Of a stretch of 64,000 nt of DNA, positions 55,802-64,000 are shown in pieces (the first letter of the stretch is position 1; every line of letters starts with the position of its first letter). Where the stretch lies: NCBI RefSeq assembly GCF_004010055.1, contig NZ_RQVT01000050.1, positions 1-64,000 of the forward strand, in the 5' to 3' direction. The notes beneath the pieces are model-generated. The model searched no databases. It was not told the DNA's origin and saw only the letters and a program-made list of their open reading frames with translations. This DNA comes from Psychroflexus aestuariivivens. GTDB taxonomy: Bacteria; Bacteroidota; Bacteroidia; Flavobacteriales; Flavobacteriaceae. A program made the position numbers and the translations under genes.

Positions 55802-56464
55802 TCACTTGGGTAAATTCTCTAAAATGTCATTAACCGAGGCTCTTTGCTTATAATCAGGATTGAATTGTTTATAAACAATTCTACCATTAGTGTCGATAAT
55901 GAAAGTTGCCGGAACAGGTAGTGTTGCCTGTTTATTTGCATTTGTTTCACTAATTGAGGCATTGAGCTTTTCTTCAATCATTGAGTGATATTCATCTGTA
56001 ACATCAAATTGAACATCAAAAGCTGTCATCACTGAACCGTCAGCGTCTGAAATTACCGTAAAATCAATTCCAGTATTATCTATAGTCTTTTCGGTATTTT
56101 CATAGGTCTCAGGAGTTACAGCGATAATTTTAGCACCGGCATTTTCTATTTCAACCGCTCTTTCTGCAAATTCTGACAAATGTCGGTTACAAACTGGGCA
56201 CCAATAGCCCCTGTAGAAAATAACTACGAGAGGTTGGGTACGGTAAAGTGATTCAAGTGAAATCTCTTCGGAATTACTTGATTTCATTGTAATAACTGGC
56301 GCATTATCGCCAATTTTCAGACCTTTAGGATTTGAATTTTCACTCACTCCATGTTTTTTAATGCCAAGTTCTTGCTTAGTATCTTTTTTCTTTTGATTTG
56401 GTGTATTTTCGTTGCATGCAGCAATTAGTAATATTACTGAAACGACTAGGAATATTTTCTTCAT
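55802..56464 (-). CDS. Peroxiredoxin-like (AhpC/TSA) lipoprotein
   Basis: 220 residues. A lipoprotein signal (VVSVILLIAAC, Cys17) is followed by a linker rich in Lys/Asn and a thioredoxin-fold domain with APVITMKSSNSEEISLESL, FYRGYWCPVCNRHLSEF (C89 and C92), IIAVTPETYENTEKT and PATFIIDTNGRIVYKQF. The CxxC and YRGxWCP context place it with the peroxiredoxin-like/thiol reductase group rather than classical 2-Cys AhpC. It would reduce peroxides or disulfides in the periplasm. Stand-alone gene. Confidence 0.88.
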   Translation of the reverse strand: MKKIFLVVSVILLIAACNENTPNQKKKDTKQELGIKKHGVSENSNPKGLKIGDNAPVITMKSSNSEEISLESLYRTQPLVVIFYRGYWCPVCNRHLSEFAERAVEIENAGAKIIAVTPETYENTEKTIDNTGIDFTVISDADGSVMTAFDVQFDVTDEYHSMIEEKLNASISETNANKQATLPVPATFIIDTNGRIVYKQFNPDYKQRASVNDILENLPK

Positions 56465-56517: not shown

Positions 56518-57120
56518 TTACAAATTTACTCCCTTCGCAACTTTCAAAGCATACTGAGCTTTATTATAAGCACTAACCGCTTTCAAATAATCCAATTGTG
56601 ATTGCAGAAAAAAGTGTTGTGCCTGAAAAACTTCAAAGGGTTTAGCCGTACCCAACTTTTGTCTTTCTATACTTTGGTTCAAAGCTTTTGTAGTAAAGTC
56701 TAACGCTTCTTTGGCGGCTTCAATTTGTTCTTTTCCTAATTGCAAATCAGAAGTAGCATTGGCAATTTCTTCGTTGATCTTAACTTTAAATTGCTCTGCT
56801 TCAATTTCATTCAGACGCATTTTACTTTCAAAGGTCTTTTTGTCTCCCTGATAGGTTATTGCTCCCAACGGGATTTTCCACATCAATGAAACATTCAAGG
56901 CTTGTGTAGGATAAAGCTGTTGTGTTTCAGGATATTGAGCAGGGGTCATTGGTGATACATTTCCTCTGATACGACCAAAATAAGAACCGTAAGTACCTAC
57001 ATTTAATTCAGGAATAAGCAGACCCATAATGTATTTTTTTCGTTATATCTCCAAGGCTCTAAATTGTAGTTCATTGGCTTTTATCTCTGGGCGGTTTTGA
57101 TATACTGAATCTTCAGGTTT
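56518..57120 (-). pseudogene. TolC-family outer membrane efflux protein, 5' truncated and with an in-frame stop
   Basis: The frame encodes the C-terminal third of a TolC/CusC-type protein: PEDSVYQNRPEIKANELQ, a stop TAA at 57045-57043, then RKKYIMGLLIPELNVGTYGS, the helical hairpin LQLGKEQIEAAKEALDFTTKALNQS and the terminal LDYLKAVSAYNKAQYALK. A GAA to TAA change would explain the stop. The rest of the protein is missing because the coding match ends at about 57120, inside the 3' end of the kinase gene at 57113. Any product would start at ATG 57027 and lack a signal peptide. I read it as a relic cut by arrival of the neighbouring operon. Confidence 0.82.
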
Positions 57121-58120
57121 TTATTAATAGGGTTCTTGCTTCTTCTAGTAAATCCTTACGATTTTTCAGGTCAATACTTAATGGCAACTGTGCCAAACCA
57201 AGAATCCGCCTTAAGATTTCTACTGCCATAAACTGCATACAAAGGGAATTTTCTAAAGCATGTTTATCCTTATAAAACTTCAAAGCTTTTTCGACTATTT
57301 CGTTGGGTTGATCAGCCATTTTTAAGTGAGCTAAAGTCACACCGATTTCAAATTCTACGTCTCCAAAAAAACAAAATTCTGGATCTATAATTTTGATGCC
57401 CTGCCCCGTCTTCAGCCAGCTTCCTGGAAAATAATCACCATGTAGTAAGTTTTTACCATCCTGTAGATAGCGTTCTCCTAGTGTCTTTACTTTATCTTTT
57501 AAAACTTCGTCTTGTTTATATGGTTTTCCAACCGCCTGCAATCCAGGAAGGATGTCGTCTAAATCAAGACCATTATCTTCTAAGTAAGGATAAATAAATA
57601 TGTGTTCGTGATTGAGCTTACGCATTTCTCTGTTAGGAAGTCTAGCCTCAGTTGTGCTTGTATTAATCCTATTATGGAGTTCTGCTATAAAAGTCATTAG
57701 TTGCTTAAGCTCAGCTTCGTCGATAATGTTTTCTTCCTGATATAAAAATGTATAGTCCACTCCATTTCCTAAATCTTCCAGATTTAAGACGTGATTTTCT
57801 TTATCGACACCATTCAGTTTTGGCATCTTTTTACTTAGCGCTTCTTCTTGTGCAACTAACTGATAAAATTCAGCTTCTCGAAGCGCACGGTCTTCAGGAG
57901 CGGGAACCTGAGGATATTTTTCTACATAGTTTCGACTTTGTTTGATAATAAGACTTCGCTTTCCAGTTTTGACTCGAATCGTGAAATTCATATTACCTGC
58001 TCCGGGTATTTCTATGGCAGTTATCGTTTCATTTAGCTGTAACCATCCCTTGCCTTTGAGGTAGCTTTCTAAACTGTTTTTATTTGCTGTTAATTCCTGT
58101 ACTTGTTTCAAAATTTTCAA
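57113..58120 (-). CDS. Methylthioribose-kinase-like sugar kinase (APH fold)
   Basis: 335 residues, a protein-kinase/APH fold. The N-lobe has IPGAGNMNFTIRVKTG (glycine-rich loop) and SLIIKQSRNYVEKYP (ATP lysine). The catalytic loop is LLHGDYFPGSWL (about 226-237) and the metal site IIDPEFCFFGDVEFEIG (about 246-262). HGDxxxGS and DPEFxFxGxxxFxIG are the motifs of 5-methylthioribose kinase. It is 2 bases downstream of the nucleoside-hydrolase-like gene, the last gene of the SusCD operon. It likely phosphorylates a sugar released from a nucleoside. Exact substrate (ribose, methylthioribose, other) is inference. Confidence 0.85.
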   Translation of the reverse strand: MKILKQVQELTANKNSLESYLKGKGWLQLNETITAIEIPGAGNMNFTIRVKTGKRSLIIKQSRNYVEKYPQVPAPEDRALREAEFYQLVAQEEALSKKMPKLNGVDKENHVLNLEDLGNGVDYTFLYQEENIIDEAELKQLMTFIAELHNRINTSTTEARLPNREMRKLNHEHIFIYPYLEDNGLDLDDILPGLQAVGKPYKQDEVLKDKVKTLGERYLQDGKNLLHGDYFPGSWLKTGQGIKIIDPEFCFFGDVEFEIGVTLAHLKMADQPNEIVEKALKFYKDKHALENSLCMQFMAVEILRRILGLAQLPLSIDLKNRKDLLEEARTLLIKT

Positions 58121-58122
58121 TT

Positions 58123-59202
58123 TTATTTTAAGAGGCTTTCCATTAATTTTTCATGGTAATCTTCTACAATATCGTAACAATAAGTCACTAGAGCGCCTTC
58201 AGTTTCATTACAAATGAGATAATTTTTAAAATGATTTCCTGAAGAATCCAGCTTCATATCATTGGGATGAATTTCAAGATGAGCTTTTAAATTTTCACTT
58301 ACAATATCTTCTGGTGCAATAAGATAATGACTTGCCAAAACGTCGAAAGGATTAAATCCATTTTCCCCTATGGAAGTCCATTGCTGCAACCAGGGTTGAG
58401 ATTTTTCCGCCATCCATTTGGTACCGGCATCTCCCTCGCTCAGTTTTTGCAAATCCTCCTGAGTGATCCAAACTTTATTGGAAATTTCAAAAGGACAAAG
58501 TACAACGGGGATGTCATTCTGAAATAGCACAAGGAAGGCATTGTTATCCAAGTCAAAATTGAGGTCTGGCGCATGCGTAATTTCAGTTTTACCAATTTCA
58601 AAATAGTCAGTTGGACTTCTACGACCAGCCACTAGAACGACTTCTTTTATTTGAGATTTCAGCTCAGGATACAATAAAACCAAAGTGGCGATATTGGTGG
58701 CAGGACCAATAGCCAGGATATGCAGAGGTTCTTTTCTTAGCTGTTCTGCCAAGGCCTCTACAGCCTCGTTAGTTTCTACATTATCCAGAGTAATTGATTC
58801 TCCAGCTCCTTTATAAACAGGTATTTCATAAGGGGCAAACTCGTCTGCCATTTTTTGAGAAAGTCGGTAAGCATCATCAATTCTGGTGTTACCAAATACT
58901 GCACTTATGCCTTTCACATCAATATTTTCAGCTTTAAAAAGCTGTAATATAGCGTAGCCATCATCGACATCGCTGTAGCCTTCACGCTCATAACGTTTCA
59001 TGCCAACTGCAAGATCGGCATCTATCCATACTTTTTTCTTTTCGTTCTGCGTTATGTTTGCATCAGTTTGAGTCAATTCACTTTCGGACGTATCCTCCTT
59101 ACTCAGATCATTAGTTTGATCTTTATTGTTGCTGGCTTCCTGGCAGCTTATCATGACTAACATAGTTAATACGATAAAACTATTTTTAAAAAGCTTATTC
59201 AT
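58123..59202 (-). CDS. Nucleoside hydrolase-like lipoprotein
   Basis: 359 residues with a lipoprotein signal (VLTMLVMISC, Cys20), so it acts in the periplasm or on the membrane. The calcium and substrate aspartates are present but spaced unusually: D61-A-D63, then an insertion of about a dozen residues before DVDD (78-81), where typical enzymes have DxDxGxDD. GPATNIATLVLLYP, VLVAGRRSPTDYFEIG and LNFDLDNNAF follow in order. The C-terminal HDP position reads NPFDVLA, so the catalytic histidine is replaced. It lies between susD and the kinase gene. It is expected to cleave N-glycosidic bonds; specificity unknown. Confidence 0.85.
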   Translation of the reverse strand: MNKLFKNSFIVLTMLVMISCQEASNNKDQTNDLSKEDTSESELTQTDANITQNEKKKVWIDADLAVGMKRYEREGYSDVDDGYAILQLFKAENIDVKGISAVFGNTRIDDAYRLSQKMADEFAPYEIPVYKGAGESITLDNVETNEAVEALAEQLRKEPLHILAIGPATNIATLVLLYPELKSQIKEVVLVAGRRSPTDYFEIGKTEITHAPDLNFDLDNNAFLVLFQNDIPVVLCPFEISNKVWITQEDLQKLSEGDAGTKWMAEKSQPWLQQWTSIGENGFNPFDVLASHYLIAPEDIVSENLKAHLEIHPNDMKLDSSGNHFKNYLICNETEGALVTYCYDIVEDYHEKLMESLLK

Positions 59203-59224
59203 CTTGAATTTGTTTTAGATTAAA

Positions 59225-60670
59225 TTAATTTTCCCACCAATTTTTTGCATTGATGTTATCTCCAACGATTCTTTCTACGGCAGCATCATAATTCTCTTTA
59301 TTCACTGCTTGCTCAGACTCGGGATACAAATAGCGAACAGGGTATCTATCTTCATTAAAGTTATCTGGCCCTGGCTCAAGATCAGGAATACCTGTCCTTC
59401 TAATATTAAACCAGGCTTCGTGGCCTATCATAAAGAGGCTCAGCCACTTTTGCGTAAGTATCTTTTCCAGATTTTCCTGAGTAGAACCATTCAAAGCAAT
59501 AGCTTCTCTTGCAAAATAGTCGCCCGGCAACGAAGCTCCGTAATATTCAAAATGAGCTGCGATGCCGTTTTGATAATATTCATTTGCATCTCCAGAAATA
59601 AAGCCCCTTTCTACTGCTTCAGCCAAAGCAAATTGAACTTCAGAATACAACATTATTTGAGCATCTACTCCGTCTGGCACGGCTCTAAATCTGTCTGATA
59701 ACAATGAAAGATCATTCAGATCAATACCTCTTTCACTTATAGTTTGGCTGCTTAATCCATTTTGCAAACCTCTAAATTCCGGATTTCCCTCAAGTACGCT
59801 TTTGGGAGTAGGTTTAAAAAAAACGTCAAGTCTGGGGTCATTCCATTGTTTTAATTGATTTTCAAAAGTTTCACTCATTTTTAAACCCTGATAGATTCCT
59901 GTTGCTGCATTGAACAATGGAAACTGATTAGGGGCAGCACTCAAATAAGGTAGGACAGCATTATCGGCATTGGATTGTAAAAGCTGACCTCCGTCTGCAA
60001 GTTGTTGTAATTTGCTAAAGTCGGTAAATTTACCGCTAATTCGTATCCTAAATCTCACTTGCAGAGAGTTGGCAAAACGTGCCCATTTAGTAAGATCATT
60101 ATTAAACATAATGTCGCCACGAATACTTTCGTTTGTATTTTCAAGCTGAATAACAGCAGCTTCCAATCTGGCTAGCAGACCATTCTCAGGGTTGGTGTAT
60201 ATCTCTTCTTGTCTATCATAAACTGGTGTGAAATTGAGCTCATTGAATTGAATAGCTTCGCTATAAGGCACATCTCCCCATAAATCGGTAAGTTGAGAAT
60301 AGAGGTAAACTTTGTAAATCTCTGCTACTGCATCATAGGCATCGTTGTACCCTGGCAGTTCTTTCATAGATTCTAAATCTGCCAAAAGGCCAAATATCAT
60401 GTTCCAATAGCCACTATTACTACCTAATTCATAGCGATCAATTCTCTCAAATTCTACATCGGCATTAAATTGCGCCAGGTAGTTATTGAATCTTAAGCCT
60501 TGAATGAAAGTGTGTTCATCGATTTGTTCCAAAATTACATTAGTTAATAAAAATTCCGGACTTACCTCTTGAGGAGCGTTTGGATTATCGTTGATGTCTT
60601 CAAAATTTTCTGTACAACTTAGTGTAAATAATAAAATTACTGAAAGCAAAAAAGCTTGTATATGTTTCAT
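59225..60670 (-). CDS. SusD/RagB family lipoprotein, nutrient binding
   Basis: 481 residues with a lipoprotein signal (SVILLFTLSC, Cys19) followed by NFEDINDNPNAPQEVSPEFLLTN, the characteristic start of SusD-like type 2 proteins. TPR-like helices support the ligand site, with SQLTDLWGDVPYSEA, a segment common in the family, near 140-155. SusD proteins sit on the cell surface and lid the paired SusC barrel. The ligand is not readable, but the downstream hydrolase suggests a nucleoside or a nucleoside-bearing compound. Confidence 0.93.
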   Translation of the reverse strand: MKHIQAFLLSVILLFTLSCTENFEDINDNPNAPQEVSPEFLLTNVILEQIDEHTFIQGLRFNNYLAQFNADVEFERIDRYELGSNSGYWNMIFGLLADLESMKELPGYNDAYDAVAEIYKVYLYSQLTDLWGDVPYSEAIQFNELNFTPVYDRQEEIYTNPENGLLARLEAAVIQLENTNESIRGDIMFNNDLTKWARFANSLQVRFRIRISGKFTDFSKLQQLADGGQLLQSNADNAVLPYLSAAPNQFPLFNAATGIYQGLKMSETFENQLKQWNDPRLDVFFKPTPKSVLEGNPEFRGLQNGLSSQTISERGIDLNDLSLLSDRFRAVPDGVDAQIMLYSEVQFALAEAVERGFISGDANEYYQNGIAAHFEYYGASLPGDYFAREAIALNGSTQENLEKILTQKWLSLFMIGHEAWFNIRRTGIPDLEPGPDNFNEDRYPVRYLYPESEQAVNKENYDAAVERIVGDNINAKNWWEN

Positions 60671-60680
60671 GATAAGTATA

Positions 60681-63600
60681 TTAAAAATCTGTTTTTAAAC
60701 TAACTCCAAAACTTCTTGTAGAAGGATATGAGAAATCCTCGACACCTTGTACGATGTTGCGGTCTTGAAAAGCGTTGAGTTCTGGGTCAAAATGTGGATT
60801 TTCTGTGAATAACAACAAATTACTCCCTACAAGGCCAATCTTTAAATTTTCGGTACCCAAAGAGCTGGCTATTTTTTCAGAAAATGTATAGTAAATGCTG
60901 AGTTGTCTTAGCTTAAGGTAGGAAGCATCATAAAGTGCACTGGCTTCATTACCTCTATCAAAAAAAGCATTATTGAATGTGCTTGCTGCAACAGCAGTGG
61001 TGTTGGGGACATAATTAGGATTTTCGGGTGTTCCTATATTGGTCACTCCATCTCCAACAATACCATTTCCATCAACAAAACGTGTATTGGGTCCACCGCC
61101 TTCTCTGCCACGTAAAGTTTCTTCTAAAACACCAGAGGTGCTTCCAAGGGCTTTAATCCTGGAGACAATAGTTCCTCCATGGCGCCAGTCAAAGAGTATG
61201 TTCATATCCCAGTTTTTATAAGAAAAGCTGTTGCTGAAACCTAACGAGAAGTCAGGGTTATAATTTCCTAATTTTCTAAGGTTAGGATCCTGAACAGGTA
61301 AGCCATTAGAGTCAAATAGAGTTTGACCATCTATTTCAACAAAACCAGTTCCGTACATGTCACCTACTTGCCCATCTTCTTTGGCAATGAAAAAAACCGT
61401 ATTAGAACCGCCGCTACCACTAAAAACACTTGCTGTTGCAGTGACAAATTGATCTACGCCCTGAGGGAGTTCTGTAACTATACTTCTGAATGTGCTAAAA
61501 TTGAAAGCTGTATTCCATTGAAAATCGTTCGATTTAATTGGTGATGCCGAAAGTCTAATTTCAAGACCTCTGGTTCTTATTTCACCTCCATTTTCATTAA
61601 AACTTAAAAAACCACTTGCACTTGATATGGGTCTTGAGATAATTTGATCTTTACTTACATTTTGATATACAGAAGCATCTAGCTGAATTCTACCTTTTAG
61701 GAACCAGGCTTCAACTCCAGCTTCGTAAGCATCTAGTCGCTCTGGTTTCAGGTTGGTATTTTGTAAAACCGTGGCATTGGTGACTCTAAAGTTAGAACCA
61801 TAATTTCCATTCAGCTGAAAAGTTTGCGTATTTTGAAAAGGGTCTGTATCATTTCCTACAGATGCTGCACTTAATCTAAATTTTAGGAATGAAACGGACT
61901 CAGGAAGCTTCAGGCGTTCTGAAGCAATATAACTTAGTCCTGCAGAATAATAACTAAATGAGTTATTCTCTGAAGGTAAAGTACTGCTCCAGTCGTTTCT
62001 AAATGTGAAATCAGCGTAGAGCTCGTCTTTATATGAGAAATTGGCTGTGCTATACACGCTGTTGATACGTTTCTCAAAACGTTCGCTGTTCCCAAGCAAG
62101 GGGGAACGAGAGTTGGCCAATGTGTAGATTTCCGGCACTGCCAGCTGTGAGGCTTCAGAAAATGAATAATGAATTTCCTGGTTAAATCGGTTGGCACCTG
62201 CGGTAAGTGTGTAGTCCCAATTTTCATCAATCTTATTTTGGTAAGAAAGTAAAAAGTCGGTATTCATTTCAGTAAAGCGTACTTTATCTTCTCTGAAGGA
62301 GCCAAAGGGATTCGCGTTGGTACTTACTGCTCTTCTGAAATTTCTTTGATCGTCATAAGTATCTATTCCAGTTCTCACTTTAAGCGATAAATGCTCAGAA
62401 AACTCGTAAATAGCAGATACATTTCCCAAAATTCTGTTTTTATCAAAACTGTTGGTATTTTCAAATACAGTGAGGTAAGGATTAGTCAGCCATAGATAAT
62501 TGATGTCAAAATGTTGACGCCCGGTTTGCCCAGCCTGCCAATAATCTCTCATGGATTCTATATTAGTTTGCCTTCCCGTCCAGTTGAATCCATAAAGTAC
62601 GTTTTCATAACCATAACCTAGATTTGGACGGTTGCCACTTCGAGTGTTTATGAAATTTAGAAACGTGTTGACTTTTAGATTTTCGCTAAGTTCCTGATCG
62701 AGACTTATAGAAATTCCATCACGCTTTAGGTCTGTATTAGGAACAATACCTTCATTGCGTAAGTTGCTGTAAGAAAGCCTCATACCGCCAATATCTCCTC
62801 TTTTACTTATGGCAATATTATTTTGGTAAGTGATGCCAGTATCAAAAAAATTGCGAACATTATCGGGTCTGGATACCCATGGCGTTGCTGTAATTGGCGT
62901 AAAAGAACCATCGGGTAAAGTACGTGAAATGACATCTCCACCCCTTACAGGATTACCATTGATGTCCACAGATGGACTGTCGAACTGCGGGATTAATAGG
63001 CCAGCATCCAATCGCGGTCCATAACTGCTTATACCACCATCATTAATACCAGCTCCAACACCATTCTGAAATGCATACTGGCCATTAGAGCCTAAGCCAT
63101 AAACATTTTGATAATCTGGAAGCGTTAGCAAAGTTTCAATGGTGAAATTACTATTGATGCTTACTCCTAATCCTTCAGATTTTTTTCCTCGCTTAGTCGT
63201 AATGAGGACAACTCCATTGGCAGCACGGGAACCATATAAGGCAGCTGAGCCAGCACCTTTCAATACTGAAATAGATTCTATATCATCAGGACTAAACTCT
63301 GAAGCGCCATTTCCATAATCTACTTCTTGTAAAGCACCGTCATTAACTAGATCGCTTGTGATTTGTTCGTTGCTTATAGGAACCCCGTCTACAACAAATA
63401 AGGGTTGATTACTTCCACTTAGTGAATTTTCACCACGTATGATAATTCTCGATGAAGATCCAACACCACTCGATCCGTTTGTTATTTGCACTCCAGCTAC
63501 CTGTCCGGCCATACCATTAACCATATTGGTTTGTGGTACGTCAACCATTTTTTCAGAATCTATTGTAGAAACAGATGAAGACAAAGAACGTTTTTCCTTT

Positions 63601-63932
63601 TTGATACCCAGAGCCGTTACAACTACTTCATTGAGTTGCTCTTCTGAAACCTTCAAAATAATTACATCCTGAAGTTGACTGTTTTTCACTTCTATAAGAG
63701 CAGTTTCAAACCCTATGGAAGAAATTTCTAAAATGAAATTTCTGGAGTTGGTTTCCAAGCTAAAAAAACCATTAGCATCTGTAGTGGTATAATTCTGAGT
63801 CCCTTTTTCAGATACAGCTGCGTAGGGTATAGGATTTTGATTGCTATCTACAACTCTAGCTTCATAAACATTGTTTTGTGAAAACGTTGTTATCACAAAT
63901 AATTGCCAGAAGGCAATGAGAAATAATTTCAT
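60681..63932 (-). CDS. SusC/RagA family TonB-linked outer membrane protein
   Basis: 1083 residues. A signal peptide (ending ITTFSQ) is followed by a CarboxypepD_reg-like domain (about 22-100, DSNQNPIPYAAVSEKGTQNY), the family plug start VVTALGIKKEKRSLSSSVS, plug motifs VPQTNMVNGMAGQVAGVQI and GSAALYGSRAANGVVLITTKRG, and a 22-strand barrel ending STRSFGVSLKTDF. It imports ligands captured by SusD using TonB energy. It is the first gene of a four-gene operon; a near-match -7 box (TAGCCTTG, 63966-63959) lies 26 bases upstream. Length is normal for the family. Confidence 0.95.
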   Translation of the reverse strand: MKLFLIAFWQLFVITTFSQNNVYEARVVDSNQNPIPYAAVSEKGTQNYTTTDANGFFSLETNSRNFILEISSIGFETALIEVKNSQLQDVIILKVSEEQLNEVVVTALGIKKEKRSLSSSVSTIDSEKMVDVPQTNMVNGMAGQVAGVQITNGSSGVGSSSRIIIRGENSLSGSNQPLFVVDGVPISNEQITSDLVNDGALQEVDYGNGASEFSPDDIESISVLKGAGSAALYGSRAANGVVLITTKRGKKSEGLGVSINSNFTIETLLTLPDYQNVYGLGSNGQYAFQNGVGAGINDGGISSYGPRLDAGLLIPQFDSPSVDINGNPVRGGDVISRTLPDGSFTPITATPWVSRPDNVRNFFDTGITYQNNIAISKRGDIGGMRLSYSNLRNEGIVPNTDLKRDGISISLDQELSENLKVNTFLNFINTRSGNRPNLGYGYENVLYGFNWTGRQTNIESMRDYWQAGQTGRQHFDINYLWLTNPYLTVFENTNSFDKNRILGNVSAIYEFSEHLSLKVRTGIDTYDDQRNFRRAVSTNANPFGSFREDKVRFTEMNTDFLLSYQNKIDENWDYTLTAGANRFNQEIHYSFSEASQLAVPEIYTLANSRSPLLGNSERFEKRINSVYSTANFSYKDELYADFTFRNDWSSTLPSENNSFSYYSAGLSYIASERLKLPESVSFLKFRLSAASVGNDTDPFQNTQTFQLNGNYGSNFRVTNATVLQNTNLKPERLDAYEAGVEAWFLKGRIQLDASVYQNVSKDQIISRPISSASGFLSFNENGGEIRTRGLEIRLSASPIKSNDFQWNTAFNFSTFRSIVTELPQGVDQFVTATASVFSGSGGSNTVFFIAKEDGQVGDMYGTGFVEIDGQTLFDSNGLPVQDPNLRKLGNYNPDFSLGFSNSFSYKNWDMNILFDWRHGGTIVSRIKALGSTSGVLEETLRGREGGGPNTRFVDGNGIVGDGVTNIGTPENPNYVPNTTAVAASTFNNAFFDRGNEASALYDASYLKLRQLSIYYTFSEKIASSLGTENLKIGLVGSNLLLFTENPHFDPELNAFQDRNIVQGVEDFSYPSTRSFGVSLKTDF

Positions 63933-64000
63933 TCTAGTGATTGTTTAGTCTATGACTTCAAGGCTAATTCTACGATTCTTTGGTTTGAAATTTTAGACTT

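Follow-up and report, generated by a model that had tools for sequence, protein, structure and literature searches.

We analyzed a 64,000-nucleotide stretch of the Psychroflexus aestuariivivens genome (contig NZ_RQVT01000050.1, positions 1 to 64,000, hereafter the window), in which a four-gene operon on the minus strand (57113-63932) encodes a SusC/RagA transporter, a SusD-like lipoprotein, a lipoprotein of the nucleoside-hydrolase (NH) family and a kinase resembling 5-methylthioribose kinase (MTRK). The reading that we favor, with confidence slightly below even, is that this operon serves in the uptake and salvage of a riboside with a substituent at C5, probably an organoarsenical, and would feed an arsenosugar core. 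In close relatives the kinase module stands in the place of ArsS, which suggests a recycling route for arsenosugars from the sea. Loci, genomes and contigs are referred to by our L, G and C numbers where they need to be told apart.

The genes and families listed in the preliminary description were confirmed, as were the short gaps of 2-22 bases between them; a check of the open reading frames (ORFs) gave 10, 22 and 2 bases in the order from SusC to the kinase. The SusC/RagA TonB-linked outer-membrane transporter (60681..63932, 1083 amino acids) scores 604 bits with TIGR04056 (cut-off 368) and forms a SusCD pair with the SusD-like lipoprotein (59225..60670, 481 amino acids; PF12771, 321 bits), whose signal ..TLSC/T was read by eye and was not flagged by the motif scan. 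The NH lipoprotein, the putative ribosidase (58123..59202, 359 amino acids), matches PF01156 with 117.8 bits (cut-off 34.2), and its signal MISC/Q was recognized both by eye and by a motif scan, although a narrower motif missed it. The kinase (57113..58120, 335 amino acids) has a TTG start codon, with a second TTG 9 bases further in. As in other SusCD utilization loci of Bacteroidota, the SusC/SusD pair leads the operon, but the four genes include no glycoside hydrolase besides the NH, and an MTRK-like kinase is part of the set.

Homologs of the kinase with 75-79% identity are present in three named Psychroflexus species. The pairing of kinase and NH held in most relatives but not in all: among 33 kinase-bearing genomes, 14 of which are known from stretches of about 4 kb only and two of which (L017 and L018) are close Emticicia bins, the NH adjoins the kinase in 22, so that the gene array is more than chance, while an ADP-ribosylglycohydrolase-family protein takes this position in four and neither is found in seven. 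A ribosidase of either type is thus adjacent to the kinase in 26/33 genomes. The ADP-ribosylglycohydrolase-family proteins were called at L022 by a family scan (PF03747, 134 bits) and at L024, L099 and L100 by BLAST or clustering. Enzymes of this family, which is of another type, also release a ribose derivative from a glycosidic bond, and beside the kinase they appear to have replaced the ribosidase without being homologous to it.

The kinase matches the APH family in Pfam (PF01636, 37 bits), and its best NCBIfam model is that of MTRK, TIGR01767, with a score of 112.5 bits that does not reach the equivalog cut-off of 275 bits. An AlphaFold (AF2) model built from 19 homologs (mean pLDDT 92.1, pTM 0.90) was compared to the PDB with Foldseek. 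Entries of 5-methylthioribose kinase took each of the first 15 places (18-21% identity, TM 0.70-0.80 over the query), the next matches being PsiK, the choline kinase LicA and aminoglycoside kinases. Working parts described for plant MTRK are a GXGNXN Gly loop, an HGD loop, a Mg-binding DXE and an RR motif with a Glu/Lys three residues earlier (PMC2194712). The corresponding GxGNxN loop, HGD, DxE (DPE) and E..RR motifs are invariant in all 19 homologs, and the longer motifs HGDxxxGS and DPEFxFxG of the preliminary description read HGDYFPGS and DPEFCFFG. Fold and motifs are shared with the S-methyl-5-thioribose kinase MtnK (TIGR01767; PDB 2olc, 2pyw) and the 5-deoxyribose kinase DrdK, but identity to 2olc and 2pyw is about 20%, and the PDB chains have 397 and 420 amino acids as compared to 335 here. 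Assignment to the choline kinases or to other APH kinases was considered and dropped, given that the choline-kinase family PF01633 had no match in the own genome and that PsiK, LicA and the aminoglycoside kinases rank behind the MTRK entries. Sequence, predicted fold and motifs support the earlier identification of the kinase as an MTRK relative, which groups with the methylthioribose kinases rather than with choline or other APH kinases.

The 5-methylthio group of the substrate is capped in plant MTRK by a semi-conserved Trp of the W-loop and two other residues (PMC2194712). This Trp, present in MtnK, is absent from 19/19 kinase homologs, which have Val or Ile at the aligned position. Because the motifs are invariant and the W-loop Trp is gone, phosphorylation of a ribose at C1 is well supported at the level of sequence, and the C5 pocket is, as judged from the alignment, altered relative to MTRK. 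A rival reading is that the operon salvages or disposes of 5'-methylthioadenosine or 5'-deoxyadenosine: the NH would free methylthioribose or 5-deoxyribose, the kinase would convert it to the 1-phosphate, and methionine or dihydroxyacetone phosphate would be recovered downstream. This would agree with the kinship to MTRK and with the report that DrdK, which is closely related to MTRK, acts on either sugar (PMC6079011); radical-SAM enzymes near some of the loci would also yield 5'-deoxyadenosine. We nevertheless consider it improbable. The Trp cap expected over a methylthio group is missing, and an outer-membrane importer would be odd for an internal by-product. Moreover, and unlike the situation expected for MtnK, no match to the methionine-salvage isomerase MtnA (TIGR00512) was obtained at E 0.001 in any of 18 kinase genomes (L017 left out; some incomplete, such as G006 at 80%), with a control search positive in 9/14 genomes, which makes methylthioadenosine an unlikely substrate. 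The same model would presumably also catch the MtnA paralog DrdI. These results disfavor both adenosine derivatives, although arsenic is not thereby proven.

The active site of the NH may also point to C5. In RihA, calcium is bound by Asp 10, 15 and 241, water is held by an Asn, and Asn158 and Glu164 are the O5' ligands (PMC2898832). As in this and other inosine-uridine nucleoside hydrolases (PF01156), the calcium-binding Asp residues (D63, D81, D287) and the water-holding Asn (N215) are invariant in 22/22 NH homologs; the PDB alignment includes D81, D287 and N215, and D63 was placed by the DxD motif only. The O5' ligand pair is, in contrast, not kept in these 22 homologs: the position of Glu164 is an Asp in all of them, while that of Asn158, the residue after an aligned Gly, is Asn in six as judged by eye and Lys in the window copy. 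Further differences to the RihA-type enzymes are residues inserted between DD and the first pair of Asp, the change of the HD-motif His to Phe in the window copy and the export as a lipoprotein. The changed O5' ligands would fit, without proving, a substrate altered at C5. They argue against ordinary nucleoside catabolism, in which the NH would free ribose, the kinase would convert it to ribose 1-phosphate and a phosphopentomutase would yield ribose 5-phosphate, a route that we regard as quite improbable even though the NH family acts on plain ribonucleosides and purine nucleoside phosphorylase (PNP) neighbors the module in Psychroflexus. DrdK was active on 5-deoxyribose, and of the six further pentoses and hexoses tried with it, methylthioribose alone was accepted (PMC6079011), so that plain ribose is disfavored as a substrate of the related kinase. 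Ordinary catabolism would also give no account of why the module replaces ArsS beside TIGR04282.

This replacement is seen at one slot in the Psychroflexus genomes, located between a small conserved gene (a SPOR domain in the one copy scanned) and a run of rhodanese (NF045521), TIGR04282 and PNP genes, which holds one of three modules. Module A (L037, L039, L041, L042, L046, L047) consists of a TIGR04169 peroxidase-like gene, ArsS and, in 2/6 loci, ArsM, with scores in L046 of 445 bits for ArsS and 570 bits for ArsM (NF038099). Module B (L038, L009, L050 and L025, the left end of the latter being outside the retrieved stretch) consists of a DUF2064 paralog, SusCD or another TonB receptor, in some cases an ABC importer, the NH and the kinase. 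Module C (L043, L044, L045, L048) consists of the DUF2064 paralog, a TonB receptor, which was not called in L048, a YnjBCD-like ABC importer and another radical-SAM protein. Rhodanese NF045521 and TIGR04282 adjoin the kinase module in four members of the genus (G005, G016, G021, G025); in a fifth, G006 (L026), module B is followed by rhodanese only, and TIGR04282 is on another contig. Compared to the arsenosugar biosynthesis cluster (ArsM NF038099, ArsS TIGR04167, TIGR04169, TIGR04282, TIGR04283, NF045521 and PNP), the relatives share the slot, the rhodanese-TIGR04282-PNP core and, at several loci, the DUF2064 paralog, but have an importer, a ribosidase and a 1-kinase instead of ArsM and ArsS, and the window operon is located apart from the core.

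Counted over the own genome and 26 other genomes of the genus, 15 have only ArsS, five only the kinase, one both (the window's own) and six neither, an alternation with p = 0.027 within the genus. Four of the six with neither were retrieved and have module C; the remaining two are G011 and G007 (52% complete). Modules A and B interleave in a tree of rhodanese and TIGR04282 (17 rows, 14 of the genus), in which G016, a kinase species, and G001, an ArsS species, are sisters (support 98/96). To explain the distribution of the three modules, this tree requires 5 changes, as compared to an average of 6.9 for shuffled labels, which were as low in 15/200 cases, and the strongly supported branches alone force three changes for module A (ArsS), two for module B (kinase) and one for module C.

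We also examined a phylum sample of 395 Bacteroidota genomes, the own included. The kinase was identified in 16 of these at 348 bits or more, and the next best match scored 75 bits; because of this gap, no kinase count includes L105-L118 or any other match at or below 75 bits. TIGR04282 was recovered over its cut-off in 15/16 kinase genomes, as compared to 230/395 overall (p = 0.002), and in 31/32 of all kinase genomes examined (G025 by BLAST only; L017 left out). ArsS over cut-off was present in 156/395 genomes. The own family without the genus (38 genomes) has TIGR04282 in 18 genomes, of which 15 have ArsS and three the kinase, none having both, and none of its 20 genomes without TIGR04282 has ArsS or the kinase. 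Among the 49 genomes of other families in the class, 16/18 with TIGR04282 have ArsS or the kinase (the exceptions being G114 and G193), and the 31 without it include none with ArsS and one with the kinase (G315). Eight order-level genomes are without TIGR04282, ArsS and the kinase. For the class without the genus, the 36 TIGR04282-positive genomes comprise three with both, eight with the kinase only, 23 with ArsS only and two with neither. The sets for the family, the class and the genomes outside it were sorted by hand from match listings, and the p-values ignore shared ancestry. Searches for rhodanese and TIGR04283 returned many weak paralogs; rhodanese was counted over the curated cut-off only, and TIGR04283 was left uncounted.

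In the window's genome, module B is located on contig C48, the contig of the window, and module A is located on another contig (ArsS at C53:58432; rhodanese and TIGR04282 at C53:59408-60427), and since the core is on C53 it is not visible from the window. This copy of module A is without an adjacent PNP or ArsM, and its ArsS-rhodanese-TIGR04282 run adjoins ACR3 (402 bits, cut-off 283) and an ArsR-family gene. To look for a transposition remnant, the surroundings of the window operon were compared by BLAST with the C53 slot, and no match was obtained. In Pedobacter segetis (L083), the kinase cluster directly continues, on the same strand, a set of genes for a peroxidase-ArsS pair, a separate SusCD pair, a membrane protein and a metallophosphoesterase; in Maribacter antarcticus (L086), ArsS is accompanied by SusCD in the same way.

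The proposed salvage would begin with SusC and SusD, which, to go by their families, would carry the riboside through the outer membrane. The NH lipoprotein would then remove the aglycone in the periplasm, the freed 5-substituted ribose would reach the cytosol via a carrier encoded outside the operon, and the MTRK-like kinase would place a phosphate on C1 to give a 5-substituted ribose 1-phosphate. For 5'-deoxyadenosine, the conversion to deoxyribose 1-phosphate is described either by a phosphorylase or by a nucleosidase and a kinase (PMC6079011). ArsS adenosylates arsenic (PMC12159101), and in module A the ArsS product could be turned into the 5-substituted ribose 1-phosphate by PNP, while in module B the NH and the kinase would reach this compound from an imported riboside. 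Modules A and B would be interchangeable before the same core because both would yield the same sugar 1-phosphate. This would be used by the arsenosugar core of rhodanese, TIGR04282, PNP in some cases and TIGR04283, a part of which is located on C53 here. The single significant PDB relative of TIGR04282 is a putative nucleotide-diphospho-sugar transferase (3cgx, 79 bits), in keeping with the use of a sugar 1-phosphate. The likeliest substituent would be dimethylarsinoyl, as in arsenosugars or 5'-deoxy-5'-dimethylarsinoyl nucleosides, and the cell would salvage organoarsenicals instead of, or besides, synthesis by ArsS; salvage rather than disposal is the direction that we infer. Of the pathway in the preliminary description, the import, the periplasmic cleavage and the anomeric phosphorylation are thus retained, and the substrate is shifted to 5-substituted ribosides of the arsenosugar type. 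Methylthioadenosine, one of the candidates named there, and plain ribose are not supported, given the MtnA search, the loss of the Trp and the arsenosugar-named genes that neighbor the module in relatives.

The compartment in which the riboside is cut was assessed from loci with a known neighborhood. An N-terminal export signal is present on the NH at 9/9 loci that lack a linked YnjBCD-like ABC importer and at 0/9 loci that have one (Fisher p = 4e-5, a test that ignores shared ancestry; two of the nine ABC loci show only the ATPase gene in the retrieved stretch), and four further NH loci are too short to tell. The binding protein of the importer matches the YnjB-type model PRK11622 with 360 bits (cut-off 203) at the one locus scanned. 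Since the export signal tracks the lack of a linked ABC importer, the riboside seems to be cut on the side of the inner membrane to which it is delivered, which would be the periplasm or the cell surface in the window's genome. Together with the lipoprotein signal, this supports a periplasmic or surface location of the NH, in line with the periplasmic cleavage suggested at the outset.

The ArsS clusters with their own SusCD, membrane protein and metallophosphoesterase are located at L083:8601-15470 and L086:6265-13622, and their gene content suggests that import may also occur in the ArsS branch. Their SusC and SusD proteins are 41-45% and 33-38% identical, respectively, to those of module B. 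The membrane protein of L086 scores just under the cut-off as a sodium:solute symporter (21.0 versus 22.8 bits), and the metallophosphoesterase of L086 is one ORF with a peroxidase-like domain.

The same logic might apply to a substituent other than arsenic, e.g., sulfur or selenium, in which case the core would be a general handler of 5-substituted ribose 1-phosphates. In support of such a role, 24/32 kinase genomes are without ArsS over the cut-off, at least 62 genomes outside the class have TIGR04282 without ArsS or the kinase, and module C, with its other radical-SAM protein and YnjBCD-like importer, occupies the same slot. We consider a non-arsenic substituent unlikely, in that the core adjoins ArsS, ArsM and TIGR04169 in module A and ACR3 and an ArsR-family gene in the own genome, and in that TIGR04282 otherwise occurs only with ArsS in the own family.

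Several observations weigh against organoarsenical salvage. The kinase is not associated with ArsS in the 395 genomes (ArsS in 5/16 kinase genomes and in 151/379 others, p = 0.61), and since only 8/32 of all kinase genomes have ArsS over the cut-off, the link to arsenic runs through the shared core. TIGR04282 is itself common in the phylum, as seen from the 230 genomes above, and it was not matched in the kinase genome G315. Of the 297 genomes outside the class, 191 have TIGR04282, 127 ArsS and three the kinase, which leaves at least 62 of the TIGR04282-positive genomes without either of the other two; the pairing of TIGR04282 with ArsS or the kinase does not hold as a rule there, and the alternation argument rests on the class, genus excluded. 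The core tree is built on slot genes, and the apparent exchange of modules could therefore also stem from recombination of the core. No ArsS, rhodanese NF045521 or TIGR04282 was found beside the window operon, to which no core gene is adjacent, and there is no inner-membrane carrier in the operon. Seven of the 33 kinase loci have no ribosidase neighbor, and the functions of the core beyond ArsS and ArsM are named from context. Finally, classic NH enzymes cut N-ribosides. The arsenosugar described from seaweed is an O-riboside of the glycerol type (PMC6656958), and a nucleoside form would for this reason fit better.

Tentatively, and less firmly than the salvage function as such, we propose that the module represents a new route for scavenging organoarsenicals, in which Bacteroidota would take up arsenosugars or dimethylarsinoyl nucleosides by dedicated SusCD or TonB receptors, cleave the ribosidic bond by a specialized hydrolase and trap the sugar by a new 5-dimethylarsinoyl-ribose 1-kinase; the trapped sugar would join the core pathway fed by ArsS, and scavenging would be interchangeable with synthesis by ArsS at one slot. 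No such module is described among the matches listed in the open-access literature. Seaweeds are rich in organoarsenic, mostly arsenosugars and arsenolipids (PMC6656958), and a 2025 review, where it treats cellular uptake and human metabolism, describes the mechanisms by which small organoarsenicals, including arsenosugars, are taken up as largely unknown (PMC12608789). If the proposal is true, transporter, hydrolase and kinase genes could be named for the bacterial uptake and reuse of organoarsenicals, these could be used as markers of the arsenic cycle in the sea, and the TIGR04282/TIGR04283 core would have a proposed substrate, 5-substituted ribose 1-phosphate.

The region upstream of SusC in the window (63933..64000) leads to the DUF2064/TIGR04282-like paralog, which starts beyond the window on the same strand (C48:64017-64766, minus strand, equal to L023:2018-2767), 84 bases upstream of the SusC start, and scores 90 bits with TIGR04282 (cut-off 134). 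This paralog heads 12/12 kinase loci with a TonB receptor and a retrieved upstream side. Because it is without the N-terminal KNPELGKCKTRLA stretch (KTRLA-type) found in the TIGR04282 protein of the same genome, it may be non-catalytic. Homologs are present in L008, L043, L046, L083, L086 and L087, and many copies end in an NKGSP/RGPP-like motif. The paralog leads the kinase clusters and several ArsS clusters, but not those of L037, L039, L041 and L042.

The radical-SAM protein of module C, of about 320-350 amino acids, is linked with a YnjBCD-like ABC importer in the four module C loci and in L013, L015, L019 and L021, being in the place of ArsS in some species and joined to the NH and the kinase in others; for the L013 copy, which was scanned, the NCBIfam matches listed are all far below their cut-offs. 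In L044 (3415-11281; G010), the module C receptor and the solute-binding protein were each called as two pieces, with unassigned ORFs between these pieces and the permease genes, as if by an insertion or frameshifts. The genes to the left of the slot were considered as an efflux pump, which was dropped when family scans identified molybdopterin-oxidoreductase and DsrP/Qrc-like subunits, which we take to be alternative complex III. Directly downstream of the kinase in the window, a 169-amino-acid C-terminal piece of an outer-membrane efflux protein (56518-57027, minus strand; PF02321) is an apparent remnant, and beyond it lies a gene for a peroxiredoxin lipoprotein (55802-56464).

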